Source of the DNA: Pseudomonadales bacterium
GTDB lineage: Bacteria > Pseudomonadota > Gammaproteobacteria > Pseudomonadales > UBA5518
DNA: 64,000 bases
Direction: 5' to 3'
Assembly (NCBI GenBank): GCA_022072145.1
Contig: JAJVIG010000019.1
Location: 1 to 64,000, forward strand
Position numbers and translations under genes: made by a program. Shown here piece by piece: positions 1,255 through 36,249 of this stretch. How positions within the stretch are numbered: the stretch's first letter is position 1; each line of letters opens with the position of its first letter. The notes below the pieces were generated by a model that did no database searches, was not told the origin of the DNA, and saw nothing but the letters and a program-made list of their open reading frames with translations.

Positions 1255-3039
1255 ATGGCATCCACGGGCGGCAACGAGGCTGCAACCGTACGCACCGAGC
1301 GGCGCGAGTTCACGCGCCGCGCGCTGCGCCTGGCCGCCCCGTACTGGAACTCGGCGCGCAAATGGCGCGTGCGCGGCGCGACCGGCGCGCTGCTGCTGCT
1401 GACGCTGGCGCAGGTCGCGCTGGCGGTCTGGACCAACTACTGGCATCGCGAACTGTTCGACGCGCTGGAGGCGCGTTCGGTCGCCGGCGTGCTGCGCCAG
1501 GTCGCGGTGTTCGCGCTGATCTTCGCGGTGACGCTCGCGGTCACGGCCGTGCACCTGATGGTCAAGCGCTGGCTGCAGCTCGACTGGCGGCGCTGGCTCA
1601 CGGATCGGGTGATCGGTCGCTGGATGGCGACCGGCCGCCATTACCGCCTGCTGTTCACGGCCGGCGAACACGACAACCCGGATGGGCGCATCGCCGAGGA
1701 CATCCGCATCTTCACCGAGACCACGATCGCGCTGGCGCACACGCTGGTGTTCTCGCTGCTGATGCTCGGCTCGTTCATAGAGATCCTGTGGAGCGTCTCG
1801 GGCTCCTTGCACGTGCCGGGAACCTCGCTGCACGTGCCGGGCTATCTGGTCTGGCTCGCGTTTGTCTACGCGGGCAGCGGCACGCTGCTCGGCTGGAGTT
1901 TCGGACGCCCGCTGGTGCGCACGACCAACGCGCTGCAGACCGCCGAGGCGGACTTCCGCTTCGGCCTGGCGCGCGCGCGCGAGCACTCCGAGGCGATCGC
2001 CTTGCTGCACGGCGAACCGCTGGAGCGCACGAACGCGACCCGTCGTTTCCAGCGCATCGCGCGCACCTGGTACCGGCAGTCGCGCGCGTACATGGGCATC
2101 GTGTCGTTCTCGACCGGCTACGGCGCGCTGCTGCCGGTGTTTCCGATCCTGGTCGCCGCACCGCAGTACATATCCGGCGCGATCTCGCTGGGCGTGCTGA
2201 TGCAGGCGGCGCAGGCGTTCCAGCGCCTCACTTCGGCGCTGTCGTGGCCGGTCGACAACCTCGGCGACATGGCGCGCACGCGCGCCTCGATCGATCGCGT
2301 GCTGTCACTGTACGAGGACATGGAGCGGCTCGACGCCGAGGCGCGCGTTCCCGACGGCCACCGCATCACGATCGAGCGCGCGCCGAAGGCGCGCCTCGCG
2401 ACGCAGGAACTGTGCATCGCCGAGCCCGACGGCCGCATCGTGCTCGAGCGGCTGGACCTCGAGATCCGTCGCGGCGAGCGCGTGCTGGTGGCCGGCGACC
2501 CGGCGGTGACCAGCGCGCTGTTCAAGGTGCTGGGCGGACTGTGGCCGTGGGGCAGCGGTCGCGTGCTGCTGCCCGGGGATGGCGCACTGCTGTTCGTCCC
2601 GCAGCGTCCGTTCCTGCCCGAGGGAACACTGCGCCACGCGTTGTGCTATCCGCACGCGGTGGACGCCTGCAGCGAGGAAGCGATCCTGCGCGCGCTCGAG
2701 TGCTCGGGCTGCGCGTGGCTCGCGCCGCGGCTGGACGAGAGCGACAACTGGGAACAGGCGCTGCCGCTGCGTGCGCAGCAGCGGCTCGGGTTCGCGCGCG
2801 TGCTGCTGCGCCGCCCGGCGTGGATCCTGCTCGAGGAAGCCACCGATGCCTTCGACCCGCGCGGCGAGCGGCTGATCCTCGAGATGTTGCGCCACGAACT
2901 GCCGAACAGCGCGCTGCTGACCATCAGCTTCCACAGCGGACTCGAGGCGCTGCACGACCGCAAGATCGTGCTGAACCGGCTGACCGAGACCCGCTTCCTG
3001 TTCAACGGCAGGCGCGTGAACGGCGCTTCGTCTCACTGA
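1255..3039 (+). CDS. SbmA/YddA-like ABC transporter, degenerate ATPase
   Basis: A 594-residue fusion of a six-helix SbmA/BacA-type membrane domain (about residues 25-340) and an ABC ATPase domain (about 375-590). The membrane part carries the family hallmarks WRRWLTDRVIGRWM and DNPDGRIAEDIRIF. The ATPase domain is recognisable by GLWPWGSGRVLLP but its catalytic motifs are worn. The Walker A position reads AGDPAVTSALF (about 412-422), with no Gly-Lys-Ser/Thr. The signature region reads LPLRAQQR (about 503-510) instead of LSLGEQQR. Walker B reads WILLEEATDAFD (about 523-534), with Glu for the usual Asp. ATP hydrolysis by this domain is therefore doubtful. SbmA and BacA lack the ATPase altogether and are proton-driven importers of peptides, so a similar mode is possible (inference). 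The 3' end overlaps the convergent GH5 gene by 7 bases. Confidence 0.85.
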   Translation: MASTGGNEAATVRTERREFTRRALRLAAPYWNSARKWRVRGATGALLLLTLAQVALAVWTNYWHRELFDALEARSVAGVLRQVAVFALIFAVTLAVTAVHLMVKRWLQLDWRRWLTDRVIGRWMATGRHYRLLFTAGEHDNPDGRIAEDIRIFTETTIALAHTLVFSLLMLGSFIEILWSVSGSLHVPGTSLHVPGYLVWLAFVYAGSGTLLGWSFGRPLVRTTNALQTAEADFRFGLARAREHSEAIALLHGEPLERTNATRRFQRIARTWYRQSRAYMGIVSFSTGYGALLPVFPILVAAPQYISGAISLGVLMQAAQAFQRLTSALSWPVDNLGDMARTRASIDRVLSLYEDMERLDAEARVPDGHRITIERAPKARLATQELCIAEPDGRIVLERLDLEIRRGERVLVAGDPAVTSALFKVLGGLWPWGSGRVLLPGDGALLFVPQRPFLPEGTLRHALCYPHAVDACSEEAILRALECSGCAWLAPRLDESDNWEQALPLRAQQRLGFARVLLRRPAWILLEEATDAFDPRGERLILEMLRHELPNSALLTISFHSGLEALHDRKIVLNRLTETRFLFNGRRVNGASSH

Positions 3040-4145
3040 AAGCGCGGCGGCAGCCACCCACGCTCGACGCAGTCGCGGAAGCTCCACGCCGGCGTGGTTT
3101 CGGTGCGATAGCTCCAGAAAAACCAGCCGCGGTAGTGCTCGAAGGCGAGCAGCTGCGCGGCCGCGTAGCCGCGGTACGCTACGTCCTCCTGGAAACGGTC
3201 CATGCGTTCCAGCGCGTGGTTGTACGGTCCCGGCGCCCACAGCGAGACCACCTTCAGGTCCAGTCCCAGGCTCCATTCACCCGCGATCGCCGGCACGCCG
3301 AGGTCGCGCTGGATCTGCAACGCCTCGTCGCGCCACTGCAGCCCGCCCTTGTGCATGTGTCCGTGGATGTCCATGTCGATGTCGGCACGATCGAAGCACT
3401 GGTAGCGGTGCACGTCGAACAGCACGTTGGCGAAGCCCGGTTCCTGGAACAAGCCGTGGAACTCCCGGTGCGAACGAAAGCCGTCGTGGAACGCCACCGC
3501 AACCTCCTGCGGCGTGCAGTGCGCGCGAATCGCCCGGTTGGCGCGCCGGTAGTAGTCCTTCAGCAGTCCGGTCGGCACGTCCCAGCGTGGCTCGTTGAGC
3601 ACCTCGATCGCGTGCAGGCAGCGCCGTCCCCGGTAGCGTGCGGCAAGCCGCCCGAGCACCTCGACCGAATGCGTCAGGTATTCCTCGCGCGTGTGCCATT
3701 CGCAGACGTCCTTGATCCCCCCGTTGTCGAAACCGTTCTGGCAGCCCGGTGCCGCGTGCAGGTCGAGCACCACGCGCAGCCCGAATTCCTCGGCCCACCC
3801 GAACGCGCGGTCGAGCACCTCGATGCCACCCTCGACGAAGGGGTGCCGGCTCGCCCCGTACGCGGCATGCCACGGGTACGGCGGCCCGAAGATCCAGTGC
3901 CCCAGCGGGATGCGCACGGCGTCGATGCCGCGTTCGGCGAGCCAGGCGAAGTCCTCGCGCGTGATGAAGCTGTCCCAGTGCGCGCGCAGCAGCCGCGGCG
4001 CCGCGGCCCCGAGTTCCGCGCACCACGAGGTCTCGTCGGTGGCTGCGAGCCCGGCGAACAGGCTGGGTTTCATCCATTTCTCGAGCACCAGCCAACCGCC
4101 CAGGTTGACGCCGCGCAGCCGCCGGCCGCTCATTGCATCGTTCAT
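3033..4145 (-). CDS. GH5-family beta-glucanase-like hydrolase
   Basis: A 370-residue (beta/alpha)8 glycoside hydrolase of family 5, closest in pattern to exo-beta-1,3-glucanases of the yeast Exg type. It starts with LRGVNLGGWLVLEKWMKPSL, a strong hallmark of that subgroup. The acid/base Glu is in VLNEPRW (E185) and the nucleophile in AGEWSLG (E290). Further family blocks are DAVRIPLGHW, VVLDLHAAPG and the terminal GWFFWSYRTE. I chose the ATG at 4145 because GAGGAGG lies just upstream (complement of 4151-4157); a longer frame upstream has no such site. No signal peptide is visible, so it would act in the cytoplasm or leave by an unusual route. It faces a GH17/NdvB glucan locus, which fits a role in beta-1,3-glucan turnover (inference). 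Confidence 0.87.
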   Translation of the reverse strand: MNDAMSGRRLRGVNLGGWLVLEKWMKPSLFAGLAATDETSWCAELGAAAPRLLRAHWDSFITREDFAWLAERGIDAVRIPLGHWIFGPPYPWHAAYGASRHPFVEGGIEVLDRAFGWAEEFGLRVVLDLHAAPGCQNGFDNGGIKDVCEWHTREEYLTHSVEVLGRLAARYRGRRCLHAIEVLNEPRWDVPTGLLKDYYRRANRAIRAHCTPQEVAVAFHDGFRSHREFHGLFQEPGFANVLFDVHRYQCFDRADIDMDIHGHMHKGGLQWRDEALQIQRDLGVPAIAGEWSLGLDLKVVSLWAPGPYNHALERMDRFQEDVAYRGYAAAQLLAFEHYRGWFFWSYRTETTPAWSFRDCVERGWLPPRFQ

Positions 4146-4660: not shown

Positions 4661-4740
4661 GTCCGGGCTGTGCCCGGACACCAATTGTTCGGCCACAGGC
4701 CGAACCTACGGGGACATGTTCGGCCGCAGGCCGAACCTAC
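4626..4740. repeat. GTAG-REP cluster A, four palindromes
   Basis: Four 23-base elements. Two on the + strand have the stem GTCCGGGC / GCCCGGAC: 4626-4648 (head GCAG) and 4657-4679 (head GTAG). Two on the - strand have the stem GTTCGGCC / GGCCGAAC: 4687-4709 and 4718-4740, both with GTAG heads. Each element is a tetranucleotide head plus an 8-bp stem with a 3-base loop. The cluster lies between convergent genes. The TAG at 4658-4660 stops the + strand gene, and the TAG at 4739-4737 stops the - strand gene. Confidence 0.9.
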
Positions 4741-6242
4741 GTTTGACCGGCCGGGACGCGGGTTCGCTTACGCAGCAGACCGGCTGTCATCAGGCCCATC
4801 GTCGCTATCCAGCCCAGCGCCTGCGTGTTGCGCGGCGTCTCCTGCCAGAGCACGACCGGAATGCCGATCGCGAGTACGCCGCCGAGCACGCGGCAACGCT
4901 CGCGCCAGGGCCCGTCCGGCGGCGCGCACAGCCACGCCGCCAGCGCCGGCGCTGCGAACGCCCCGAGCGGGAAATGCCGGTAGCGGGCGTCGAAACACAG
5001 GCCGAGCATCTCGACGGTCGCCACCGCTGCGGCCACGCCGATCACGCCGTCGTGCCAACGGGCGCGCTGCGCACCGGCCAGGCGCCGGCAACCGACCCAC
5101 GCCGCCAGCAGCGCCAGCACCGCGAGCGCCACGAACCAGCCGCTTTCTGCCTCCGTGCGCGCGAACAGCCGCATCTGCTGCAGATGCAGCACGCTGCCGT
5201 TGGCGGCGAGCAGCGCGAGCAGCGCCGCCGGCCACGAACGCAACGCGCCGGCGCTCAGCACCAGCCCCAGCCACGACGCGAACGCCACCGCGGCACAGGT
5301 GCGCCATTCCGGCAGGTTCGACACCTCCCCACGCAGCACGTGCTTGTCACGCCGCGCGGTGTCGAACAGGCCCCAATAGCCGCCGACCGCGCCTTCCTGC
5401 ACGCGCTTCCATGGCTGGTCGAAGGCCTCGATCAGGTTATAGCTCCAGTCCGCCGACTCGGCGCGCTGCACGAAGCCGCGCACGAAGCGTGCCTCGTTCA
5501 CGCGTCCCGGCACGGCGCCCTCGCGCTGGCGCCCCTGCGACGGCCAGCCGGTCTCACCGATCAGGATCGGCATGCCCGGAAAGGCACGCGCGGTCGCCTC
5601 GTGCGCGCGGGTGACGGCCTCGATCGCCGCGTCGATGCCGCTGGGATCGTTTTCCCAGTACGGCAACAGGTGGATGGTGACGAAATCGGTGCCGGCGGCG
5701 ATCCCGGGGTTCTGCAGCCAGAATTCCCACACGTCACCGTAGCTGACCGGCTGCGGGACCGCGGCACGCACGCGCTGCAGCATCGCCAGCAACTGCGCGG
5801 CGGTACGCTCGCGGCGCAGAAGCACCTCGTTGCCGACCAGCACCGCGCGCACCACCTCCGGATGGCGGTTCGCCAACGCGATCACCCCGGCGATCTCGCG
5901 CTCGGTCTCGGCGTCGTCACGCCCCACCCAGGCACCGGCGATCACCGTCATGCCGTGCGCGCGCGCGACCTCGGGAACGCGCTCCATGCCGCGTACCGAA
6001 TAGATGCGCACGCAACCGACCTGTCCGGCCAGCAGTGCGAAATCGCGCTCGAGCCGCGCATCATCTATGCGGAAATCACCGGGATGCTCGTCGCCGGTGA
6101 ACGGGGTGTACGAAACACAGTGCAGGCGTCGATCGGGCGCGAGTTCGCCGGGGACGTGGTGCGCGCGACCGAGCAGCCACCAGAAAGCCACGCTGGCCAC
6201 CAGAGCGGCGAGCAGCACCGGCGGCGCCGCGGCGCGTGGCAT
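4737..6242 (-). CDS. GH17-domain membrane protein
   Basis: A 501-residue protein. It starts with a signal-anchor (APPVLLAALVASVAFWWLLG), followed by an exported GH17 (beta-1,3-glucanase fold) domain at about 38-315. About seven membrane segments fill the C-terminal third. The GH17 acid/base Glu is in LVGNEVL (E139) and the nucleophile in IGETGWPSQG (E230), so the site looks intact. EAFDQPWK and GGYWGLF are further GH17 hallmarks shared with the neighbouring NdvB-like protein. GH17 domains of this type act as transglycosylases that branch or cyclise beta-1,3-glucans in proteobacteria (family knowledge). The gene starts one base after the stop of the NdvB-like gene, so the two are almost certainly cotranscribed and may act as partners. 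The stop codon TAG belongs to a palindromic repeat. Confidence 0.82.
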   Translation of the reverse strand: MPRAAAPPVLLAALVASVAFWWLLGRAHHVPGELAPDRRLHCVSYTPFTGDEHPGDFRIDDARLERDFALLAGQVGCVRIYSVRGMERVPEVARAHGMTVIAGAWVGRDDAETEREIAGVIALANRHPEVVRAVLVGNEVLLRRERTAAQLLAMLQRVRAAVPQPVSYGDVWEFWLQNPGIAAGTDFVTIHLLPYWENDPSGIDAAIEAVTRAHEATARAFPGMPILIGETGWPSQGRQREGAVPGRVNEARFVRGFVQRAESADWSYNLIEAFDQPWKRVQEGAVGGYWGLFDTARRDKHVLRGEVSNLPEWRTCAAVAFASWLGLVLSAGALRSWPAALLALLAANGSVLHLQQMRLFARTEAESGWFVALAVLALLAAWVGCRRLAGAQRARWHDGVIGVAAAVATVEMLGLCFDARYRHFPLGAFAAPALAAWLCAPPDGPWRERCRVLGGVLAIGIPVVLWQETPRNTQALGWIATMGLMTAGLLRKRTRVPAGQT

Positions 6243-6243
6243 C

Positions 6244-8838
6244 TCAGGCCACCGGTTCGGCCAGCGTCAGCGAGCGCTCGCGCGGGGGCAGCACGGCGAG
6301 GATGGACATCACGACCGCCGCCAGGTAGGCCAGCGACTGCAGGATCAGCATCGCGGCCCAGGCGTAGGCGTCGGTGGTGTCCATCTCGTGCACCACCAGC
6401 AGCCCCGCCAGCGCGCCCCACAGCAGGATCAGGATGTACAACTCCTCGCGCGCCTCGTCGACGGCCTGCAGAAAACCCCCGTGACCGCGCAGCTTGGGTG
6501 TGCGGAAAAAAGGAATCGTGCGGGTCACCAGGCCGTAGACCACCGCCTTGCCGATGGTGTGCGACAGCGCGAGCCCTGCGACCGCCGCGCCCACCGACGT
6601 GCCGAGCGGCACGCGCAGGTGCCGCAGGTACACGTAGAGGATCTTGGTTACCTTGCCGAAGAACAGCAGCAGCGGCGGCAACGCGAAGATGATATCCGGC
6701 GGCAGCGCCTGGCGGGGCACCAGCAGCATCGCCGCGGTCCACACGAGCGCGCCGGCCGTGAAAAACAGGTTCAGCCCGTCGGCGCACCATGGCAGCCAGC
6801 CGGCGATGAAGTGGTAGCGCTGGCCGCGCGTCAGCTCGGTGTCGCGGCCGAGGAAGAGCATGCCCGCATGGTGCTTCATGATCTGCAGCGCGCCGTAGGC
6901 CCAGCGGAAACGCTGCTTCTTGTAGTCGATGAAACGGTCCGGCATCAGCCCGCGGCCGTGGGATTCGAGCACGTAGGCGGCCGAATGACCGGCAGCGAAC
7001 ACCCGCAGTCCGAGCTCCGCGTCCTCGGTGATGGTCCATTCGCCCCAGCGCAGGCGCTCGAGCACGTCGCGGCGGATCATGGTCATCGTGCCGTGCTGGA
7101 TGATCGCGTCGCGGTCGTTGCGCGTGACCATGCCGATGTGGAAGAAACCCTTGTACTCCGCGTAGCAGAGCTTCTTGAACAGCGACTCCTCGCCGTCGCG
7201 GTAGTCCTGCGGGGCCTGCACGACCGCGATGCGCGGGTCGGCGAAATGCGGCGCGAGGTACTGCAGCCAGGTCGGCTCGACCAGGTAGTCGGCGTCGATC
7301 ACCGCGACGATCTCCGCATCGGGCGCGGTGCGGTCCAGCCCGTAGTTCAGCGCGCCGGCCTTGAAACCGGCGAGCGGGCGCACGTGGAAGAAGCGAAAGC
7401 GCGGACCGAGCCGCTGGCAATGCTCCTCGACGGGACGCCACACGGCCTCGTCGGCCGTGTTGTTGTCGATCACCAGCACCTCGAAGTTGCCGTACTCGAG
7501 CCGCGCCAGCGCATCGAGAGTGCGGATCATCATCTCGGGTGGCTCGTTGTAGCAGGGCACGTGCACCGACACCTTCGGTTGCCGGCCATCGAGCGTGCGC
7601 ACCGACCGGAACGATCGGCGCCGGGTCGCCCACACCGTTTCGGCGAGTTCGTGCGCCTCGGTGAACAGCACCGTGAACACACCGATCGCCGACAGTACCA
7701 ACAGCGCGCCCAGCGAGTATTCGAGCCAGCCCAGATACTGGCGCGAATAATCGTAGGCGACGAACACCAGGAACGAGGCGACCCCGAAGGCGATCAGCGC
7801 GAGGAACGCACGTCCGCGCTGCTTCAGCCCGGAGCCATCGATCAGCAACAGGCCGAACGCCAGCACCGCCATCACGATCGATACCGCGGCCAGCGTGCGC
7901 CACTCGGGAATCGCGACCACCGGACCGGTGAACGGGAATTTCAGGTTGCGGTAGACGTCGTAGACGCCCCAGTACGCACCGACGTCTCCTTCGTCGCCGG
8001 TCTTCCACGGCTGGTCGAAGGCCTCGATCACGAAATAGTCGTAGCCGGCGCTGTTCAGCCGGTTCAGCAGCGTGCGCAGGTAGATCGCCTGCTCGGCCGG
8101 CGTCGCTTCGGCCTGGCCCTGGGCACGGCCGTGCGAAGGCCAGCCGACTTCGGCGAGCAGCAGGCGCTTGCGCGGGAAGCGCTTGCGCATGTCCTTCGCA
8201 CGCGCCAGCGTGCCCTCGATCGCCTCCTCGGTGGGCACTTTCTCCCAGTACACCAGCACGTGCGCGGCGATCACGCGCACGTGATCGGCGAGCTGCGGGT
8301 ACTTCAGCCAGATGTGCCAGGGTTCCGCGGTGGTCACCGTGGTCTTCACGCCGTCGCGCACGCGGTCGATGTAACCGATCATCTGCTCGGGCGTCACGTC
8401 GCCGCGGTACACGGCCTCGTTGCCGACGATCACCATGTCGATGTTGCGTTCGCGGTTGGCGATCTCGATCGCGCGGTTGACCTCGAACTCGTTGGCCTCG
8501 AGATCGCTGCTGATCCAGACCCCGAGCGTGACCGTCATCCCGTACTCCTGCGCGATGTGCGGGATGTCGCCGAGCGTGTCGCGTACCGAATAGGTCCGCA
8601 GCCGATTCGTCTGTTCCGCGAGCAACTCCACGTCGGCACGGATCTGTTCCGGCCGGGGGTAGATGCCGCGCGTCGGATCCTCGCCGTCGCGGAACGGCGA
8701 GAACGAATACCCGGACACGTTTTCCGGCCACTCGGGCACCGGCACCGGACGGTTGAAATACGCCCAGCCGCCGGCGAACACCGCGGCGATGCAGAGCAGG
8801 ACCGCGAGGTTGAGGATCAGGTTGCGGCGGCGGTGCAT
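6244..8838 (-). CDS. ndvB: NdvB-like beta-glucan synthase (GH17-GT2)
   Basis: An 864-residue membrane enzyme matching NdvB of Pseudomonas and rhizobia in layout and length. An N-terminal anchor (about 8-27) is followed by a periplasmic GH17 domain (about 40-305; acid/base E141 in VGNEAVYRG, nucleophile E230 in AEVGWPSHG). Then come membrane helices, a cytoplasmic GT2 domain (about 420-700) and further helices. GT2 motifs are intact: HVPCYNEPPEMM, the DAD metal site near 515-517, TEDAELGLR near 610, and QRFRWAYG near 647. It should polymerise glucose from UDP-glucose, with the GH17 domain remodelling the product into cyclic or branched beta-1,3-glucan of the periplasm. The start at 8838 lies 16 bases after the aspartate kinase stop, with GAGGAA upstream. 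Ring size and linkage cannot be told from the sequence. Confidence 0.88.
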   Translation of the reverse strand: MHRRRNLILNLAVLLCIAAVFAGGWAYFNRPVPVPEWPENVSGYSFSPFRDGEDPTRGIYPRPEQIRADVELLAEQTNRLRTYSVRDTLGDIPHIAQEYGMTVTLGVWISSDLEANEFEVNRAIEIANRERNIDMVIVGNEAVYRGDVTPEQMIGYIDRVRDGVKTTVTTAEPWHIWLKYPQLADHVRVIAAHVLVYWEKVPTEEAIEGTLARAKDMRKRFPRKRLLLAEVGWPSHGRAQGQAEATPAEQAIYLRTLLNRLNSAGYDYFVIEAFDQPWKTGDEGDVGAYWGVYDVYRNLKFPFTGPVVAIPEWRTLAAVSIVMAVLAFGLLLIDGSGLKQRGRAFLALIAFGVASFLVFVAYDYSRQYLGWLEYSLGALLVLSAIGVFTVLFTEAHELAETVWATRRRSFRSVRTLDGRQPKVSVHVPCYNEPPEMMIRTLDALARLEYGNFEVLVIDNNTADEAVWRPVEEHCQRLGPRFRFFHVRPLAGFKAGALNYGLDRTAPDAEIVAVIDADYLVEPTWLQYLAPHFADPRIAVVQAPQDYRDGEESLFKKLCYAEYKGFFHIGMVTRNDRDAIIQHGTMTMIRRDVLERLRWGEWTITEDAELGLRVFAAGHSAAYVLESHGRGLMPDRFIDYKKQRFRWAYGALQIMKHHAGMLFLGRDTELTRGQRYHFIAGWLPWCADGLNLFFTAGALVWTAAMLLVPRQALPPDIIFALPPLLLFFGKVTKILYVYLRHLRVPLGTSVGAAVAGLALSHTIGKAVVYGLVTRTIPFFRTPKLRGHGGFLQAVDEAREELYILILLWGALAGLLVVHEMDTTDAYAWAAMLILQSLAYLAAVVMSILAVLPPRERSLTLAEPVA

Positions 8839-14060: not shown

Positions 14061-16280
14061 ATGATGAATGTGCGACAGTTCAACTCGCGGAAGACCGGCA
14101 TCGCAGCGCTCGTGGGCGCCGCCATCGCGGCTTCCGTACCCGGCATGGCGCTCGCACAGGACGCGGCCGCAATCGAGGAAATGATCGTCACCGCGCAGAA
14201 GCGCGAGGAGCGGTTGCAGGACGTGCCGATCGCGATCAGTGCGATCTCGAAGGCGCAACTGGAGAAACGCGGCGTCGAGGACGTGCTGGACCTGAAGGCG
14301 CTGGCGCCCAACCTGCTGGTCAGCAAGTACCCGAACAGCAACGTGGTGTCGCAGGTCGCGATCCGCGGCGGCGTGACCGTGAACGCCGCGATGTACTGGG
14401 AGCCGAGCACCGGCATGTACCTCGACGGCGTGTACCTCGGCAAGGCCGTGGGCTCGGTGTTCGACGTGGTCGACCTGGAGCGCGTCGAGGTGCTGCGCGG
14501 ACCGCAGGGCACGCTGTACGGCCGCAACACGATGGCCGGCGCGGTGAACCTGATCACCAAGAAGCCGACCGGCGAGTTCGGCGGCTCGGCGAAGCTCGAA
14601 CTCGGCAACTACGGCTACCACACGGAACGCGTGTCGGTGGACTTGCCGAAGATGGGCATCGCACGCGCCTCGTTCGCGTTGCGCTCGGAGAAGCGCGACG
14701 GCCTGGTGAAGCTCAGCGACTCGAGCCCCGGCGACGAGCTTGACAGCCGCGACAAGCTCGGCGCGCGCTTCGCGCTCGCGCTCGACATCGCCGACAACTT
14801 CGTCGCCGACTACGCCTACGACTACACCGACATCGACCAGGCGCCGCCGCACAGCCAGCTCTACCACGTGACGCCGACGACCGCGCTGTTCACCGAGGCC
14901 GCGACACTGGCATCGACCAAGCGCCTCGGCAAGGTCGCCACCAACTGGCCCGGCTACGAGCAGCTCGAACTGGAAGGCCACGCGCTGACGCTGACCTGGG
15001 AAATCGACGAGCACAACACGCTGAAGTCGATCAGCGCGTACCGTGACCTGAAAAACGACGACTCGGTCGACCTCGACGGCACGCGTCTCACCATCGCCAC
15101 CGCGAACCGCATCTCCGACTTCGAGCAGAAGTCGCAGGAACTGCAACTGGTCGGCGACGTCGCCGACCTGAACTACGTGGTGGGCCTGTACTACTACAAG
15201 GACGAAGGCGACACGGTCAACCCGCACGTGTTCTTCTTCGGCACCGACAGCTCCGAATACGGTTTCGGCGCCGAGGCGAAAGCCGCCTACGCCCAGCTCG
15301 ACTGGCATGCCACCGAACAGCTCACGCTGAGTGGCGGCCTGCGCTACACCGACGAGGACAAGGACACCTGGCGCTTCAAGAGCGCCACCATCCCCAGCCA
15401 GCGGATTCCATTCACCTCGGCGAGCGAGTCGTTCTCCGACACCACGCCGATGGTCAGCGCCGCGTACGCGTTCAGCGACGAACTAAACGTCTACGTGAAG
15501 TACTCCGAAGGCTTCAAGAGCGGCGGCTTCCAGGGCGAGTCCGCGACCGCAGCCGAGGCCGTGGTCCCGTACGATCCCGAGAAACAGTCGACCTGGGAAA
15601 TCGGCGCCAAGTCCACCCTGCTCGACGGCACGCTGCAGCTGAACGCGGCGGTGTTCCACAACACGATCGAGGACATGCACGTCACCCAGTTCTCGGGAAG
15701 CCCGGGCGTCTCGTACGTGCGCAACGCCGGCGAGGCGACCACGCAGGGCTTCGAGCTCGAGGCCACCTGGGCGCCGATCGAGCAGCTGCGCCTGCAGGCG
15801 AGCTACGGTTACCTCGACGCCGAGTGGGACGAGTTCATGGAGGCACCGAAAGTGGGCCAGCCGGTTACGAACGTCGCCTCGAACCGTTCTTTCCCGCACG
15901 CGCCTGAGCACACGCTGAACGTGTCGGCCGACGCGCTGCTCGGCGCCACCGAGTGGGGCGAGATCCGCGCTTTCCTCGACTGGAGCTACACCTCGGAGTT
16001 CAATGCGTACGCATACCAGATCGACCAGGTCGATCCGGCGCGCGCCGTCGCGGGCAACTCCGAGATCGACAGCTACGGCCTGCTGAACGCGAAGGTCTCG
16101 CTGTCCGAGATCCCGCTCGGCGACGGTGCGGGCGAGTTCGCGCTGTGGGCACGCAACGTGACCGACGACCGCCAGCCGGTGAACTACATCGACTTCGGAC
16201 CCGGCTTCTTCGCTGGCTACCGTCTCGCGTACTACCAGGAACCGCGCACCTACGGCGTGTCGTTCGTCTACGACTGGTAA
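14061..16280 (+). CDS. TonB-dependent outer-membrane receptor
   Basis: A 739-residue receptor. A signal peptide ends at ASVPGMALAQD. The TonB-box/plug start follows as IEEMIVTAQKREERLQDVP, then the plug hallmarks VEVLRGPQGTLYGRNTMAGA. The beta-barrel ends with an aromatic residue (VSFVYDW). The long variable plug loops and the barrel resemble receptors for hydrophobic or aromatic substrates in marine and steroid-degrading proteobacteria, though the ligand cannot be told. GAGGAGA precedes the ATG pair at 14061. A strong hairpin terminator follows the gene. It is a clear paralogue of the receptor at 23268. Confidence 0.92.
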   Translation: MMNVRQFNSRKTGIAALVGAAIAASVPGMALAQDAAAIEEMIVTAQKREERLQDVPIAISAISKAQLEKRGVEDVLDLKALAPNLLVSKYPNSNVVSQVAIRGGVTVNAAMYWEPSTGMYLDGVYLGKAVGSVFDVVDLERVEVLRGPQGTLYGRNTMAGAVNLITKKPTGEFGGSAKLELGNYGYHTERVSVDLPKMGIARASFALRSEKRDGLVKLSDSSPGDELDSRDKLGARFALALDIADNFVADYAYDYTDIDQAPPHSQLYHVTPTTALFTEAATLASTKRLGKVATNWPGYEQLELEGHALTLTWEIDEHNTLKSISAYRDLKNDDSVDLDGTRLTIATANRISDFEQKSQELQLVGDVADLNYVVGLYYYKDEGDTVNPHVFFFGTDSSEYGFGAEAKAAYAQLDWHATEQLTLSGGLRYTDEDKDTWRFKSATIPSQRIPFTSASESFSDTTPMVSAAYAFSDELNVYVKYSEGFKSGGFQGESATAAEAVVPYDPEKQSTWEIGAKSTLLDGTLQLNAAVFHNTIEDMHVTQFSGSPGVSYVRNAGEATTQGFELEATWAPIEQLRLQASYGYLDAEWDEFMEAPKVGQPVTNVASNRSFPHAPEHTLNVSADALLGATEWGEIRAFLDWSYTSEFNAYAYQIDQVDPARAVAGNSEIDSYGLLNAKVSLSEIPLGDGAGEFALWARNVTDDRQPVNYIDFGPGFFAGYRLAYYQEPRTYGVSFVYDW

Positions 16281-23267: not shown

Positions 23268-25526
23268 ATGCACATACGCAACCGCAAGGGCGCCCTCGCG
23301 CTGTCACTGGCGATCTCGCAACTGCTCGCGGCACAGGCCGTGTTCGCACAGGACGGCGCAGCGCCGGCCATCGAGGAGATGGTGGTTACCGCGCAGAAGC
23401 GCGAGCAGAGCCTGCAGGACGTGCCGATCGCAGTCAGCGCCTTCGGCTCCGACCAGATCGAATCGCGCGGCATCACCAGCATCGAGAACCTGACCGCGCT
23501 GGCGCCGAACATCCAGATCAGCAAGGCGCCGGGCAGCGCCACCGCCTCGCAGATCGCCATCCGCGGCAGCGCGCAACAGAACCCGGCGCTGTACTGGGAT
23601 CCGACCGTCGGCATCTACGTCGACGGCGTCTACATCGGCAAGTCACAGGGATCGATCTTCGACGTGATCGACGTCGAGCGCATCGAGGTACTGCGCGGGC
23701 CGCAGGGCACCCTGTACGGGCGCAACACGCTGGCCGGCGCGCTGTCGTTCATCACCCGCAAGCCGAGCGGCGAGTTCGCCGGTTCGGCGACCTTCGGCCT
23801 CGGCAACTACGACGAGCGCTCGACCAAGGTGTCGGTGGACCTGCCGCGCGTCGGCATCGCGAGCGTATCGTTCGGCCTGCAATCGCTGCAGCGCGACGGC
23901 TGGGTCGACGTCGATGGTCCCTCGCGCGAGGCAGCGAACCGTGACAGCTACGCCGGACGGCTGGCAGTGAACCTCGCGTTCAGCGAGAGCTTCGAGGCCG
24001 ATTACCGCTTCGACCGCACCGACATCGACCAGAAGCCGCCGCTGAACCAGCTCTACCGCAGCAACCTGGATCAATGGGGCATCCCCGGGCTGTTTCCCTC
24101 CCGCGATCGCGAGGACGAGGCGGCGCTCGACCTCGACGCGTACGAGGAATCGCAGGTCGACGGCCACTCGCTGACGCTGACCTGGGAAATCAACGAGCAA
24201 CACACGCTGAAGTCGATCACCGCATACCGCGAGATGAGCTGGGACGACGGTATCGATCTCGACGGCAGCGCGGTGCCGGTCGCGCACACCTTCCGCAACT
24301 CCGACTACGACCAGACCTCGCAGGAACTGCAGCTGGTCGGCGGCGGTGACCGCTGGAACTACGTCGCGGGCATCTATTACTTCGAGGACGACGGCTCCAC
24401 GCTGAACCCGCAGACGTTCTTCTTCGGCACGTTCAACTTCGATTCCCGCTACGCGTTCACCACCGAGTCGCGCGCCGTCTACGGCCAGTTCGACTACCAG
24501 CTGACCGAGGCGCTGACCCTGACGGCCGGGCTTCGCTACACGGAGGAAGAGAAGACCATCGATCGCCTGCTCGGCGTGAACTTCGCGACCGGCACGCCAT
24601 TCATCCCGCTGGTACCGCAGGGAACCGAAGGTTCCGAGGACTTCAGCTCGACGACACCGCTGATCAGCCTGGGTTACCAGCTGAACGACGACCACAGCGT
24701 CTACGCGAAGTACTCGCAGGGCTTCAAGAGCGGCGGTTTCAACGGCGAGTACGGCGTGGTGGGCGATCTCTCGCCCGCGGTGGTCGCGGCGAACGTCGCC
24801 GAGGTGCAGACGCCGTTCAAGCCGGAGGAGATCAAGTCCTACGAAATCGGCTACAAGGGCAGCTTCCTCGACGGTCGTGCGCAGCTGAACGCCGCCGCGT
24901 TCTTCAACGAGGTGGACGACATGCAGCTGTCGATCTTCACCGCGCAGGGCGCTTCCGCCTCGGTGGTGCGCAACGCCGGCCAGGCCGAGACCAAGGGCAT
25001 CGAGCTCGAGGGCGTGCTGGTCCCGGTCGACGGGCTGCGCCTGCAGGCGAGCTACGGCTACCTGGACGCCGAGTACAAGGAGTTCATGGACGGCGGTGTC
25101 GACCAGGCCGACAACCGCGCGATGATCCACGCGCCCGAGCACGTGTTCAACCTGCTGGTCGACGCGCGCATCGCCGAGACGCAGTACGGCACCTGGCGCG
25201 CGATCGCGGACTATGTGCACAAGGCCTCGTGGTATCCGTACCCGTACCAGCTCGCCGCGAGCGGCACGCTGCCGGCGTACGACGCCACGCAGCCGGTGGC
25301 CGGTGACACCAAGGTGGACTCCGTGGGGTTGCTGAACCTTCGCCTGGCACTGACGGAAATCCCGCTCGGCGAGGGCGAGGCCGAGGCGGCGCTGTGGGTT
25401 CGCAACGCCACCGACGAGGAGCACGCGTCGAACTTCATCGACTTCGGGCCCGGCTTCGGCAATCTGACCACTTCTTACTGGCAGGACCCGCGCATGTACG
25501 GCGCGAGCGTCACCTACCGCTGGTAA
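23268..25526 (+). CDS. TonB-dependent outer-membrane receptor
   Basis: A 752-residue receptor with a signal peptide ending at AAQAVFAQD. The plug starts EEMVVTAQKREQSLQDVP and contains IEVLRGPQGTLYGRNTLAGA. The barrel ends in an aromatic residue (VTYRW). Blocks such as SVDLPRVGIASVSFGLQS, HTLKSITAYREMSWDDGIDL and ASYGYLDAEYKEFM are shared almost word for word with the receptor at 14061, so the two are recent-looking paralogues with probably related ligands. A GC-rich hairpin follows the stop. Confidence 0.92.
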   Translation: MHIRNRKGALALSLAISQLLAAQAVFAQDGAAPAIEEMVVTAQKREQSLQDVPIAVSAFGSDQIESRGITSIENLTALAPNIQISKAPGSATASQIAIRGSAQQNPALYWDPTVGIYVDGVYIGKSQGSIFDVIDVERIEVLRGPQGTLYGRNTLAGALSFITRKPSGEFAGSATFGLGNYDERSTKVSVDLPRVGIASVSFGLQSLQRDGWVDVDGPSREAANRDSYAGRLAVNLAFSESFEADYRFDRTDIDQKPPLNQLYRSNLDQWGIPGLFPSRDREDEAALDLDAYEESQVDGHSLTLTWEINEQHTLKSITAYREMSWDDGIDLDGSAVPVAHTFRNSDYDQTSQELQLVGGGDRWNYVAGIYYFEDDGSTLNPQTFFFGTFNFDSRYAFTTESRAVYGQFDYQLTEALTLTAGLRYTEEEKTIDRLLGVNFATGTPFIPLVPQGTEGSEDFSSTTPLISLGYQLNDDHSVYAKYSQGFKSGGFNGEYGVVGDLSPAVVAANVAEVQTPFKPEEIKSYEIGYKGSFLDGRAQLNAAAFFNEVDDMQLSIFTAQGASASVVRNAGQAETKGIELEGVLVPVDGLRLQASYGYLDAEYKEFMDGGVDQADNRAMIHAPEHVFNLLVDARIAETQYGTWRAIADYVHKASWYPYPYQLAASGTLPAYDATQPVAGDTKVDSVGLLNLRLALTEIPLGEGEAEAALWVRNATDEEHASNFIDFGPGFGNLTTSYWQDPRMYGASVTYRW

Positions 25527-27374: not shown

Positions 27375-29723
27375 ATGGTTCGCAACGCCCGCGTCCGGGA
27401 TCCGGCGCCCACGCTGGAAGCCGGGGCGTTGTGGGAGCGTTTCGTGATGCACCGCGCGCGCTGGTGGCTGCCGTTGGCGCTGGTGCTCGCGGCCGGCGTG
27501 GCGAGCATGCTGTACGTGGGCGTCGGAACCTACCGCGGCGCACCGCCGATCCCCGATTTCGTGACCGCCGACGGCACCGTCGTGCTGTCACGCGAGGAAA
27601 TCCTGCGCGGGCAGGTGTTGTTCCAGCGCCATGCGCTGATGGACTACGGCAGCCTGTTCGGCGACGGCGCCGCGCGCGGCACCGATTTCACGGCCGATGC
27701 GCTGCACGAGGTCGCGCGCGCCGCGCTCGCCTACCACGCGGGTGACGCACCGGCGGGAAGCGAGCGCCACGACGCGGCGCTGGCGCGCATGCAACGCGAA
27801 TTGCGCAGCAACGGCTGGGACGCGAGCAGCGGCCGCGCACTGATCGGCGACGCGCAGGCGCACGCACGCGAGGTGCTCGCCACGCACTACGCCGGGATGT
27901 TCGCCGGCCGCGGACCGCAGGCCTTCCACCCGGCCGGCTACATCGACGACACCGCCGAACTGCGCGCGCTGTCCGGATTCTTTTTCTGGGGCGCGTGGGT
28001 GTGCGCCGCCGAACGCCCCGGCAAGGGGTACAGCTATACGCACAACTGGCCCTACGACGAACTCGCCGGCAACCGCCCCGGTGCGCCGGTGCTGTACTGG
28101 AGCGTGATCGCGGTGCTCGGTTTGTTGCTCGGACTGGGGCTGGTGCTGTACCTGTACGGCCGCTACGGCCACGCCAGCGGCTGGGGCAGCGGCCCGCAAC
28201 GCGGCGCACCGTTCGCCATTGCCCCGCAAGCGTGGCGACCCACACGGCTTGCGCGGCTCGCGTATCGCTTCTTCGCGGTCGCCATGCTGCTGTTCGTGCT
28301 GCAGATCGTCGCCGGCATCCTGACCGTGCACGATTTTCTCGGCATCACGCGCATATTCGGCATCGAGACCGCACACGTGCTCCCGGTCACGGTGACGCGC
28401 GGCTGGCATCTGCAACTCGCGCTGCTGTGGATCACGGCCTGCTGGATCGGCGCCACGCTGTTCCTGCTGTCGATGATGCACCGCGAGGAATTGCCGGCAC
28501 AGCACGGCATGGCACGCGCGCTGCTGTGGCTGCTGGTCATGCTGGTCGCCGGCACGCTGGCCGGGGTGTGGCTGGGCCCGCACGGGCTGCTCGGCGACTG
28601 GTGGAACCTGCTCGGCAACCAGGGCTGGGAGTTCGTCGAGATGGGCAAGCTGTGGCAGGCGCTGCTGCTGGTGGTGTTCGCGCTGTGGGCGGGACTGGTG
28701 GGCCAGACGGTGCTGCGCGTGCGCCGCGAGGGCGACGCCTGGATCCTGCCGAAGTGGCTGTTCTACGCGGTGGCCTCGATCGCGCTGCTGTTCCTGTCGG
28801 CCTTCGTCGCCAGGCCAACGACGAACTTCGTGATCGCGGACTTCTGGCGCTGGGCCGTGATCCACATGTGGGCGGAGGCCTTCTTCGAGGTGTTCACCAC
28901 CGTGCTGCTCGCGTACGTGATGTACCTGACCGGGCACATCAGCCACGCCGGCGCCTCGCGGATCGTGTACCTGGCAACGCTGCTGTTCCTGGGCTCGGGG
29001 CTGCTCGGCATCTCGCACAACTTCTACTGGAACGCCAAACCGGTGGCCACGCTCGCCATCGGCAGCGTGTTCTCGACGCTGCAGGTCGTTCCCCTGCTGC
29101 TGCTGGCGCTAGAGGCGTGGTCCTTCCGCTCCGGCCAGCGCCGCAGCACCACACAACCGGCCGCGACCGCGCACGGCGAGGCGTTCCTGTTCCTGCTCGG
29201 CGTCAACTTCTGGAACTTCCTCGGCGCCGGCGTGTTCGGCTTCATCATCAACCTGCCGATCGTGAACTACTACGAACACGGCACCTATCTCACGGTCAAC
29301 CACGGGCATGCGGCCCTGATGGGCGTCTACGGCAACCTGGCGCTCGCGGCCACCGTGTTCTGCGCGCGCTACCTGCTGCGCGACGAGGACTGGCCGTCCG
29401 CGCTGCTGCGCCGCGCGTTCTGGTCGATCAACATCGGGCTGGCGCTGATGGTGGCGCTCGACCTGTTCCCGGTCGGCATCGACCAGCTGCGCACCGTGTT
29501 CGAGGACGGTTACGCGGCGGCGCGTTCGCAGGCCTACGTGCAGGGCACGCTGTTCCAGACGCTGACGTGGGCGCGCATCGTCGGCGGCGCGCTGTTCGTG
29601 CTGGGCGGCGTACTGCCGTTCGCGTGGTTCGTGATCAGCCGCGCACCGCGGCTGGAGCCGGTGATGCTGCCAGCCGACCGCTCCGGGTCGACCGCGGCGC
29701 TCGCGGCCGAAGCCGGACCCTGA
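27375..29723 (+). CDS. norZ: quinol-dependent nitric oxide reductase (qNOR)
   Basis: A 782-residue single-subunit NO reductase with about 14 membrane helices. It reduces NO to N2O with electrons from quinol. The N-terminal extension after the first helix carries REEILRGQVLFQRHALMDYG, the hallmark that separates qNOR from cytochrome-c-dependent NorB. Haem-copper-oxidase-like His and Glu blocks follow: HVLPVTVTRGWHLQLALLW, HMWAEAFFEVFTTVLLA and VNHGHAALMGVYGNLAL. No norC is present, as expected. Position next to a small exported protein, without other denitrification genes, suggests NO detoxification rather than full denitrification. Confidence 0.94.
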   Translation: MVRNARVRDPAPTLEAGALWERFVMHRARWWLPLALVLAAGVASMLYVGVGTYRGAPPIPDFVTADGTVVLSREEILRGQVLFQRHALMDYGSLFGDGAARGTDFTADALHEVARAALAYHAGDAPAGSERHDAALARMQRELRSNGWDASSGRALIGDAQAHAREVLATHYAGMFAGRGPQAFHPAGYIDDTAELRALSGFFFWGAWVCAAERPGKGYSYTHNWPYDELAGNRPGAPVLYWSVIAVLGLLLGLGLVLYLYGRYGHASGWGSGPQRGAPFAIAPQAWRPTRLARLAYRFFAVAMLLFVLQIVAGILTVHDFLGITRIFGIETAHVLPVTVTRGWHLQLALLWITACWIGATLFLLSMMHREELPAQHGMARALLWLLVMLVAGTLAGVWLGPHGLLGDWWNLLGNQGWEFVEMGKLWQALLLVVFALWAGLVGQTVLRVRREGDAWILPKWLFYAVASIALLFLSAFVARPTTNFVIADFWRWAVIHMWAEAFFEVFTTVLLAYVMYLTGHISHAGASRIVYLATLLFLGSGLLGISHNFYWNAKPVATLAIGSVFSTLQVVPLLLLALEAWSFRSGQRRSTTQPAATAHGEAFLFLLGVNFWNFLGAGVFGFIINLPIVNYYEHGTYLTVNHGHAALMGVYGNLALAATVFCARYLLRDEDWPSALLRRAFWSINIGLALMVALDLFPVGIDQLRTVFEDGYAAARSQAYVQGTLFQTLTWARIVGGALFVLGGVLPFAWFVISRAPRLEPVMLPADRSGSTAALAAEAGP

Positions 29724-35128: not shown

Positions 35129-36127
35129 GTGGATCCGGTCAGCCAGGCCGTGCTCGGCGCCAGCGCCGCGCAATGCGGTGCCCGCGCGGGCCAGTTGCGC
35201 ACCGCGGCGCTGGTCGGGATGCTCGCCGGCATGGCGCCCGATCTGGACATACTGATCCGCTCGCCGTCCGACCCGCTGCTGTTCCTCGAGTACCACCGGC
35301 AGTTCACGCACGCGCTGGCGTTCATCCCGTTCGGCAGCCTGCTGGTGGCCGTGGTGCTGCAACTCGTCTTCGCGCGCCGTCACCTGGCGTTCCGCGCCAC
35401 CTGGCTGTTCGCCACCCTCGGCTACGCCACCCACGGGTTGCTCGATGCCTGCACCACCTACGGCACGCAGCTGCTGTGGCCGTTCTCGGACGCACGCGTC
35501 GCGTGGAACCTGGTCGCGGTGATCGATCCGGCGTTCACGCTGCCGGTGCTGGCACTGGTGGTGTGGGCGGCGGTGCGGGGTTGGCGCCGGGCCGCCGTGC
35601 TCGCGCTGGCCTGGGCGATCGCGTATCCCGCGCTGGGCATGCTGCAGCGTGACCGCGCGGCGGCCGCCGGCATGGAGGCGGCGCTGGCACGCGGGCATCG
35701 CCCGCTCGCGCTCGAGGCCAAACCGAGCTTCGCGAACCTGCTGGTGTGGAAGATCGTCTACCGCACCGAAGACCGGTTTTACGTCGACAGCGTGCGCGCC
35801 GGCTGGCGAACGCGTTTCTACGCGGGCACCTCGGCCCCGGTGCTCGACACCACGACGCACCTGCACTGGCTGGACCCCGCCAGCCAGCAGGCGCGCGACG
35901 TCGAACGCTTCCGCTGGTTCTCCAACGGCTACGTGGCACCGCATCCCGAGGACCCGCTGCAGGTCATCGACATCCGCTATTCGATCGTGCCCGACGAGAT
36001 CCGCCCGCTGTGGTCGATCCGCCTCGACCCGCTCGCGGCGCCGGCGCAGCACGTGCACTACCTCGAACGCCGCGACACCGATCCGGCTCGCCTGCGGCGC
36101 TTCCGCGACATGCTGCTGGGGCGCTGA
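35129..36127 (+). CDS. YdjM/DUF457-type membrane metal-dependent hydrolase
   Basis: A 332-residue inner-membrane protein with about five helices in its first 180 residues and a soluble C-terminal domain. The family pattern is clear: DPVSQAVLGASAAQ at the start, then APDLDIL, EYHRQFTHAL and THGLLDACTTYG. These His and Asp residues suggest a membrane-embedded metal site. The start is a GTG at 35129. It lies 19 bases after the TetR stop and may share its transcript. The physiological substrate of this family is not established. Confidence 0.85.
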   Translation: MDPVSQAVLGASAAQCGARAGQLRTAALVGMLAGMAPDLDILIRSPSDPLLFLEYHRQFTHALAFIPFGSLLVAVVLQLVFARRHLAFRATWLFATLGYATHGLLDACTTYGTQLLWPFSDARVAWNLVAVIDPAFTLPVLALVVWAAVRGWRRAAVLALAWAIAYPALGMLQRDRAAAAGMEAALARGHRPLALEAKPSFANLLVWKIVYRTEDRFYVDSVRAGWRTRFYAGTSAPVLDTTTHLHWLDPASQQARDVERFRWFSNGYVAPHPEDPLQVIDIRYSIVPDEIRPLWSIRLDPLAAPAQHVHYLERRDTDPARLRRFRDMLLGR

Positions 36128-36249
36128 AGCGCGCCTGCCTTCCAACGGCACTTTTTTGGGCCGTCCTGCCCCTTCCTTGCAGGGATCCGGAAAACCGACC
36201 AGACTTCGGCGGTAGTCCGCGTCATCAGAAAGAACAAGGAGAACGGATC

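Follow-up and report, generated by a model that had tools for sequence, protein, structure and literature searches.

In SbmA, the described example, loss of the ATPase domain (NBD) turned an ABC transporter into a secondary transporter, and the substrates known for the family are peptides, cobalamin and acyl-CoA. To our knowledge, no link to glucans has been described for Rv1819c, the mycobacterial BacA (cobalamin ABC transporter, 6tqe). The protein studied here is encoded in a window of 64,000 nucleotides, meaning the whole stretch of DNA analysed. It shares the order of transmembrane domain (TMD) and NBD with Rv1819c and aligns with it over the full length, but the identity is 28% and Rv1819c retains its Walker A motif (GRSGAGKT). 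ABCD1, ABCD3 and ABCD4 have the same half-transporter layout and fold; however, the identity in structural alignments is only ~20%, and according to their entry titles they use ATP and act on acyl-CoA or cobalamin. With SbmA/BacA (SLiPT) the window protein shares the fold of the TMD, the expected ATPase-free transport and the equivalents of E193 and E276. In our tree it stands among the YddA types of the YddA/BclA family, but Walker A, the signature, the Walker B Asp and the switch His are lost.

According to PMC13316013, SbmA derives from a YddA-like ancestor after NBD loss, the SbmA ladder comprises E193, E203, E269, E276, E287 and E378, and YddA lacks E203 and E287. SbmA/BacA, BclA and ExsE have been classified in PMC12003926, whose main text contains no word starting with "degenerate" or "fused". 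The GH17-GT2 architecture has been proposed for the pseudomonad cyclic beta-(1,3)-glucan synthase NdvB (PMC10237404), and one gene of the window shares the architecture of this NdvB-type synthase. The term "ABC transporter" does not occur in the main text of that paper, nor does "transporter" in that of PMC12102758, which deals with beta-1,2-glucanases. Among the open-licence PMC papers listed by our searches we found no report of the clade-wide fused pseudo-ATPase or the glucan module, and none of a degenerate NBD or a sugar or glucan link in the SbmA/YddA family, or of ATPase-less ABC relatives.

The transporter and its ATPase domain

Table 1. Features of the transporter gene and of the GH5 and GH17 genes next to it, in window coordinates
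Feature	Position	Strand	Remarks
Half transporter, YddA/Rv1819c type, with fused degenerate NBD	1255..3039	+	594 aa; intact ORF, alignments, model
Transmembrane domain	1342..2289	+	residues 30-345, input for the tree
Glu148, equivalent of SbmA E193	1696..1698	+	Glu in 72/76 main-clade rows
Glu155, clade-conserved acid 3 residues before the SbmA E203 site	1717..1719	+	69/76 main-clade rows
Glu231, equivalent of SbmA E276	1945..1947	+	76/76 main-clade rows
Pseudo-Walker A, GDPAVTSA	2494..2517	+	1 residue short of canonical, without Lys
Q-loop Gln450	2602..2604	+	retained; Gln in 69/83 clade rows
Pseudo-signature, LPLRAQQR	2761..2784	+	at the LSGGQ-type site
Walker B region, WILLEEATDAFD	2821..2856	+	Asp replaced by Glu527, catalytic Glu528 retained
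Phe559 (ISFHSG)	2929..2931	+	at the switch-His position
GH5, predicted exo-beta-1,3-glucanase-like	3033..4145	-	no evident signal peptide; converges tail to tail on the transporter gene
GH17 protein	4737..6242	-	Pfam score slightly below the curated cut-off
GH17-GT2 fusion	6244..8838	-	

In the 594-aa protein, Pfam found ABC_membrane_2 (PF06472, 135.5 bits, cut-off 24.4) and SbmA_BacA (84.5 bits) within residues 36-336, and no match to ABC_tran at E ≤ 0.001. Despite this, the C-terminal half is an NBD as judged by its alignments and its predicted fold. In phmmer searches residues 32-573 align with Rv1819c (E 1.1e-64) and residues 383-561 with ABCD1. The AlphaFold2 model has a mean pLDDT of 84, with 81-96 in the NBD blocks, and its top solved match is again Rv1819c (Foldseek E 2.3e-27; VIA Z 24.9 over 563 residues). 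SbmA (9g3g_B) superposes on the TMD alone (Z 24.0, rmsd 2.7, 307 residues). Fold and family of the transporter are already known. The features of the YddA/BclA type are present as far as TMD, NBD fold and tree position are concerned, and none of the four ATPase motifs (Walker A, signature, Walker B, switch His) is intact.

The first-pass annotation had described an intact reading frame with a kept ATPase-domain fold, in which Walker A, the signature and the Walker B Asp are lost, and had argued that this is no simple pseudogene. All of this holds, and loss of the switch His has to be added. In the wider alignment the pseudo-Walker A reads GDPAVTSALFK and the Walker B stretch ILLEEATDAFD. An intact Walker A elsewhere in the protein would have spoken against that annotation; the pattern is absent from the protein and from the remaining reading frames of its DNA. 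One relative (L042) shows a chance match to a loose Walker A pattern, away from the Walker A site.

Each of the 83 clade rows, 82 of them distinct, has a gap in the column of the Walker A Lys, whereas 66 of the 71 other NBD-bearing relatives have Lys there. Therefore, the loss of Walker A is neither a chance event nor a local artefact; the alignment check proposed in the first-pass annotation thus shows it to be common to the clade. The remaining losses are found in most rows and are not universal: the Walker B Asp is retained in 6/83, the signature Gly in 6/83 and the switch His in 7/83. Outside the clade, 59 of the 71 NBD-bearing relatives have all eight ATPase positions.

The NBD is under purifying selection. 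Over 2212 pairs, the NBD has a median dN/dS of 0.42 and the TMD one of 0.32, values from simple NG86 counts in GC-rich codons, with pairs that are not independent and some single pairs reaching up to 0.8. The mean frequency of the top residue is higher in the TMD (0.76) than in the NBD (0.67) of the clade; in intact relatives the order is reversed (NBD 0.56, TMD 0.50). Since the fold is kept, and in view of these dN/dS and conservation figures, the catalytic motifs were lost from a domain that selection still maintains. A pseudogene or a sequencing error was ruled out because the loss is common to the clade and conserved, with the median dN/dS values given above.

The clade, its relatives and the proton ladder

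The genome scan yielded 103 loci with a relative, and the best 80 of these (44-73% identity) were analysed. Among the best 80, the gammaproteobacterial carriers are Azotobacter, Pseudomonas, Cellvibrionales and MAGs, and the betaproteobacterial ones are Azoarcus, Thauera and Rhodocyclaceae; records labelled Deltaproteobacteria, Desulfovibrio and similar are also included. Azotobacter vinelandii CA carries its homologue at L037 and has a single PF06472 gene. The 83 clade rows comprise, besides other loci, the window, L084 (identical to L001) and L135, which is 47% identical to the window protein. In a TMD tree of 172 sequences (FastTree) the clade is monophyletic with a support of 0.995, and the SbmA group is separate from it, close to YddA with weak support. 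Since SbmA-type sequences gave an uninformative root, three distant relatives (L156, L157 and L159) served as the outgroup.

Within the clade, erosion is less advanced in a distant subclade (L074, L076-L080) and in L135. The subclade retains GEQQ and L135 EQQ; in both, the switch His is still present and Gln replaces the Walker B Asp. Their sequences read as an earlier stage of decay. One genome (G408, locus L200) carries two pseudo-ABC copies, each resembling one subclade; the second has a GH5 gene behind it on its own strand and a divergent GH3 gene in front of it.

Further branches that have lost or eroded the NBD independently are the SbmA group, the NBD-less L153-L155, which are placed amid intact sequences, a group eroded to varying degree (L132, L141, L143-L145, L149, L151 and L152) and the eroded pair L133/L147. 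The support for these lost or eroded groups outside the clade ranges from 0.965 to 1.0. Judged by this tree, the NBD would have been lost or disabled about five times including this clade, a count that hinges on a topology with uncertain deep branching.

The proton ladder of SbmA is largely missing. The window protein has two of its six glutamates (E193 and E276), and E. coli YddA has three. Among the 76 main-clade rows, the E203 site is Ile or Val in 75, the E269 site Thr or Ser in all, the E287 site Arg in 75 and the E378 site Arg, Lys or His in 74; L135 and the distant subclade still have E378. In the NBD-less L153-L155, E203 and E269 are missing as well, and Arg, Arg and Asn occupy the E287 site. 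Due to the four missing glutamates, the known proton path of SbmA is absent from the window protein. Residues specific to the clade (E72, H100, K104, R105, H139, E155, H162, Q275, Q320 and Q323) are candidates for an alternative H+ route. The window protein does not belong to the SLiPT (SbmA/BacA) type, since it has an NBD, two of six ladder glutamates and a position outside the SbmA clade, whereas SbmA has no NBD, possesses the full ladder and falls in another clade.

Beta-glucan genes around the transporter

The GH5 neighbour in the window is predicted to be an exo-beta-1,3-glucanase-like enzyme; its top solved matches are exo-beta-1,3-glucanases (8z2w, E 1.1e-58; 1eqp, E 4.8e-49). Its start was set at the first Met, and the longest ORF extends to 4280. 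Upstream, a luciferase-like (PF00296) oxidoreductase gene (201-1238, +) has its end 16 nt ahead of the transporter start, and the two look co-transcribed. As a partner of the transporter this oxidoreductase was ruled out, with 0 tblastn matches in the best 80 of the 103 loci. Farther away in the window we noted by eye a long protein with GGxGxD repeats (RTX-like; 39488-41818, -), three ORFs similar to TonB-dependent receptors (14061-16280, 23268-25526 and 35746-38517, +) and a large membrane protein resembling quinol-type nitric oxide reductase (27375-29723, +).

Among the best 80 of the 103 loci, 64 have GH5 inside the examined flank. It lies convergently downstream in 57, at a distance of ≤ 120 nt in 50 of these. 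In the distant subclade it is co-directional and downstream at five of six loci; at the sixth (L077) it shares the transporter's strand, with an uncertain ORF end. At L075 it is upstream on the strand of the transporter. The N-terminus was readable in 58 of the 64 GH5 proteins and one of these (L073) has a borderline hydrophobic stretch, by a hydropathy test and not a signal-peptide predictor. Because the other readable N-termini have no such stretch, the GH5 enzyme is probably cytosolic.

A glucokinase match was found in the flanks of 25 of these 80 loci, in 22 of them as a co-directional gene called immediately upstream, and GH30 in those of five. Pfam confirmed Glucokinase (L057), GH30 (L078) and GH16, upstream of L006, at one locus each, and an alpha-amylase-type GH13 at L025 and L041. 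Altogether, 77 of the best 80 loci have a glycosidase or glucokinase in the flank. The examined flanks of L007, L008 and L035 contain neither, and the genomes of L007 and L008, which belong to the 50 carrier genomes tested, encode GH5 elsewhere. L075 (1-6731) holds a same-strand run of GH5, a solute-binding protein, two permeases, a MalK-like ATPase and the pseudo-ABC transporter, and thus, as confirmed by Pfam, a complete binding-protein-dependent sugar ABC importer in the same run. Canonical ATPase ORFs were seen in the flanks of eight of the best 80 loci. Genes were called with a home-made script based on codon composition, and some calls may be spurious.

At the level of genomes, GH5 (E ≤ 1e-40) is present in 50/50 carrier genomes tested versus 1/398 genomes of the phylum, the one being the window's own. 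A GH17-domain match (query: GH17-GT2 of the window; E ≤ 1e-10) is found in 50/50 carriers versus 65/398 phylum genomes. Fisher tests with the own genome removed from the background gave 1.6e-67 for GH5 and 1.1e-34 for GH17, uncorrected for kinship and with carrier and phylum genomes that are phylogenetically clumped and not independent samples. GH17 and GT2 do not occur as neighbours in the examined flanks of L001-L080 (best 80 of 103); the link of GH17 to the transporter runs by genome and not by position. In the genus of the window, GH5 occurs in five of six genomes and PF06472 in two of six. At L187, L188 and L189 (genomes G004, G001 and G002 of this genus) GH5 stands at the contig end, where the transporter would be expected next; thus, its absence from these genomes is probably due to an assembly break. 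The genome of L135 (G168) has no GH5 at E ≤ 1e-40. L135, which was also surveyed as L199, ends ~40 nt from a convergent GH1 gene.

Relatives outside the clade were surveyed with queries drawn from positive loci. The NBD-less L153-L155 are all part of gene runs that carry GH1 and glucokinase on the same strand (3/3). In L205, L206 and L207, the loci of the NBD-less YddA-type genes beside GH1 beta-glucosidase and glucokinase, the whole NBD was lost separately; Pfam found GH1, Glucokinase and PfkB at L206 and GH1 at L205, a PfkB kinase was noted by eye at L207, and by pattern no separate ABC ATPase is encoded near these genes. Eroded L133, L147, L144 and L145 are near Glycoamylase (PF10091) genes, L144 and L145 near GH3 as well. 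In L210, L211, L213 and L214, the loci of the eroded transporters beside Glycoamylase (PF10091), GH3 or GH13 is added at L213 and L214. We presume that these PF10091 genes may encode beta-1,2-glucanases. A glycosidase neighbour (Glycoamylase, GH3, GH13 or GH1) is found for four of the 11 eroded relatives outside the clade and for L135 within it; the other seven outside the clade showed none. With the same queries and ~6 kb, glycosidase or glucokinase was found near 0/58 intact loci and 0/15 SbmA-type loci. The comparison of NBD-less and eroded relatives outside the clade (7/14) with intact ones (0/58) gives p 2.3e-6; the version with p 4.8e-7 counts L199, a clade member. Pfam also found no glycosidase or glucokinase among the 38 nearest neighbours of 19 random intact loci (20 drawn, L242 without a called transporter); one neighbour, at L241, belongs to the major facilitators and matches Sugar_tr in addition.

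Two intact YddA-type ABC genes follow directly behind a GH17-GT2 synthase on the same strand (L194:3055-7880 and L195:4631-9295), with gaps of ~0.2 kb and ~30 nt, respectively. Because these ABC genes are intact, the tie to glucan needs no dead NBD, and because they adjoin the synthase, export is possible.

Proposed function and alternatives

The glucan context, absent from the first-pass annotation, is the strongest evidence on function. With moderate confidence we propose that the window protein imports beta-(1,3)-gluco-oligosaccharides across the inner membrane and represents a new branch of the YddA/BclA/Rv1819c family whose NBD no longer acts as an ATPase. The functional evidence consists of gene context, which suggests the substrate class, and import by a homodimer is our assumption. 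Periplasmic beta-(1,3)-glucan, either from the GH17-GT2 synthase or foreign, would be trimmed to oligosaccharides, which the homodimeric transporter would pass to the cytosol by alternating access. There, GH5 (in some relatives GH30, GH1 or GH3) would cleave them to glucose, and glucokinase would phosphorylate the glucose released. The energy would most likely come either from facilitated diffusion pulled by hydrolysis and glucokinase, in which case ATP would be spent at the kinase in place of the NBD, or from H+ symport off the SbmA ladder. The NBD pair may serve as a structural clamp of the dimer. The dead motifs, the clade-wide loss of Walker A, the NBD fold and the presence of GH5 and GH17 in all 50 carrier genomes are consistent with this importer. 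It is also supported by GH5 next to most clade loci, by glucokinase and GH30 in some flanks, by the glycosidase or glucokinase neighbours of the NBD-less and some eroded relatives against none at intact or SbmA-type loci, and by the single PF06472 gene of 40 carrier genomes. Against it stand the classical sugar importer already present in the L075 run, the intact YddA-type genes behind a synthase at L194 and L195, the seven of 11 eroded non-clade relatives without a glycosidase or glucokinase neighbour, the choice of queries from positive loci, the kinship among the genomes, the genome of L135 without this GH5 and a main clade that, with E378, E203, E269 and E287 gone, has no known proton path.

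The direction could be the opposite one. A beta-(1,3)-glucan exporter or flippase working with the GH17-GT2 synthase, parallel to the exporters of cyclic beta-1,2-glucan, with cytosolic GH5 editing misplaced glucan, would agree with the GH17 match in all carriers and with the intact genes behind the synthase at L194 and L195. We consider export rather unlikely, since the model proposed for the synthase (PMC10237404) already moves the glucan via the synthase's membrane part to a GH17 domain in the periplasm, 64/397 other phylum genomes have the GH17 match but not this GH5, glucokinase, GH1, GH30 and GH5 look catabolic, and ATP-free export would require another driving force. The L075 run with its second sugar importer would also suit a protein that is no longer a transporter and acts in glucan metabolism as a membrane sensor or scaffold; this is very unlikely because the TMD is better conserved than the NBD, both in top-residue frequency and in dN/dS.

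The first-pass annotation had suggested an SbmA-like intermediate, proton-driven with a regulatory pseudo-ATPase. For such a transporter, of whatever substrate, speak the good superposition of the SbmA TMD, the retained equivalents of E193 and E276 and the reported origin of SbmA itself from a YddA-like ancestor that shed its NBD (PMC13316013). Nevertheless, it appears improbable, as four of six ladder sites have lost the glutamate, the clade is separate from the SbmA group and the 15 SbmA-type loci have no glycosidase or glucokinase nearby. Of the first-pass interpretation as a whole, the intact frame, the kept fold and the clade-shared loss stand, and the SbmA-like intermediate is weakened, with fewer ladder glutamates than in YddA. 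The degenerate protein could also be one half of a heterodimer whose intact ABC half is encoded elsewhere, as in exporters with one degenerate site, and a second PF06472 gene, several times intact, does occur in 10 of the 50 carrier genomes. The other 40 and the window's own genome (G000) have a single PF06472 gene, which makes the heterodimer extremely unlikely.

More tentatively, we speculate that the repeated losses have a common theme. The YddA/BacA family has shed or disabled its ATPase about five times, SbmA being one case, and the other four lineages, which have members beside beta-glucan or beta-glucoside enzymes, might be gluco-oligosaccharide facilitators of ABC fold in which the ATP cost was moved to glucokinase and the pseudo-NBD, where present, acts as dimer clamp. 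This is possible, and we regard it as less than probable.

In conclusion, the NBD loss of this clade is a case separate from SbmA, caught with the NBD still attached. The clade, which includes genera with cultured members (Azotobacter, Thauera and Pseudomonas), makes it testable why a fused dead NBD is kept and how a transporter of ABC fold is energised without ATP or the SbmA ladder. Beta-glucan oligosaccharides are predicted to be a new substrate class for the family and, if this is true, the transporter would supply an uptake step for fragments of beta-(1,3)-glucan.
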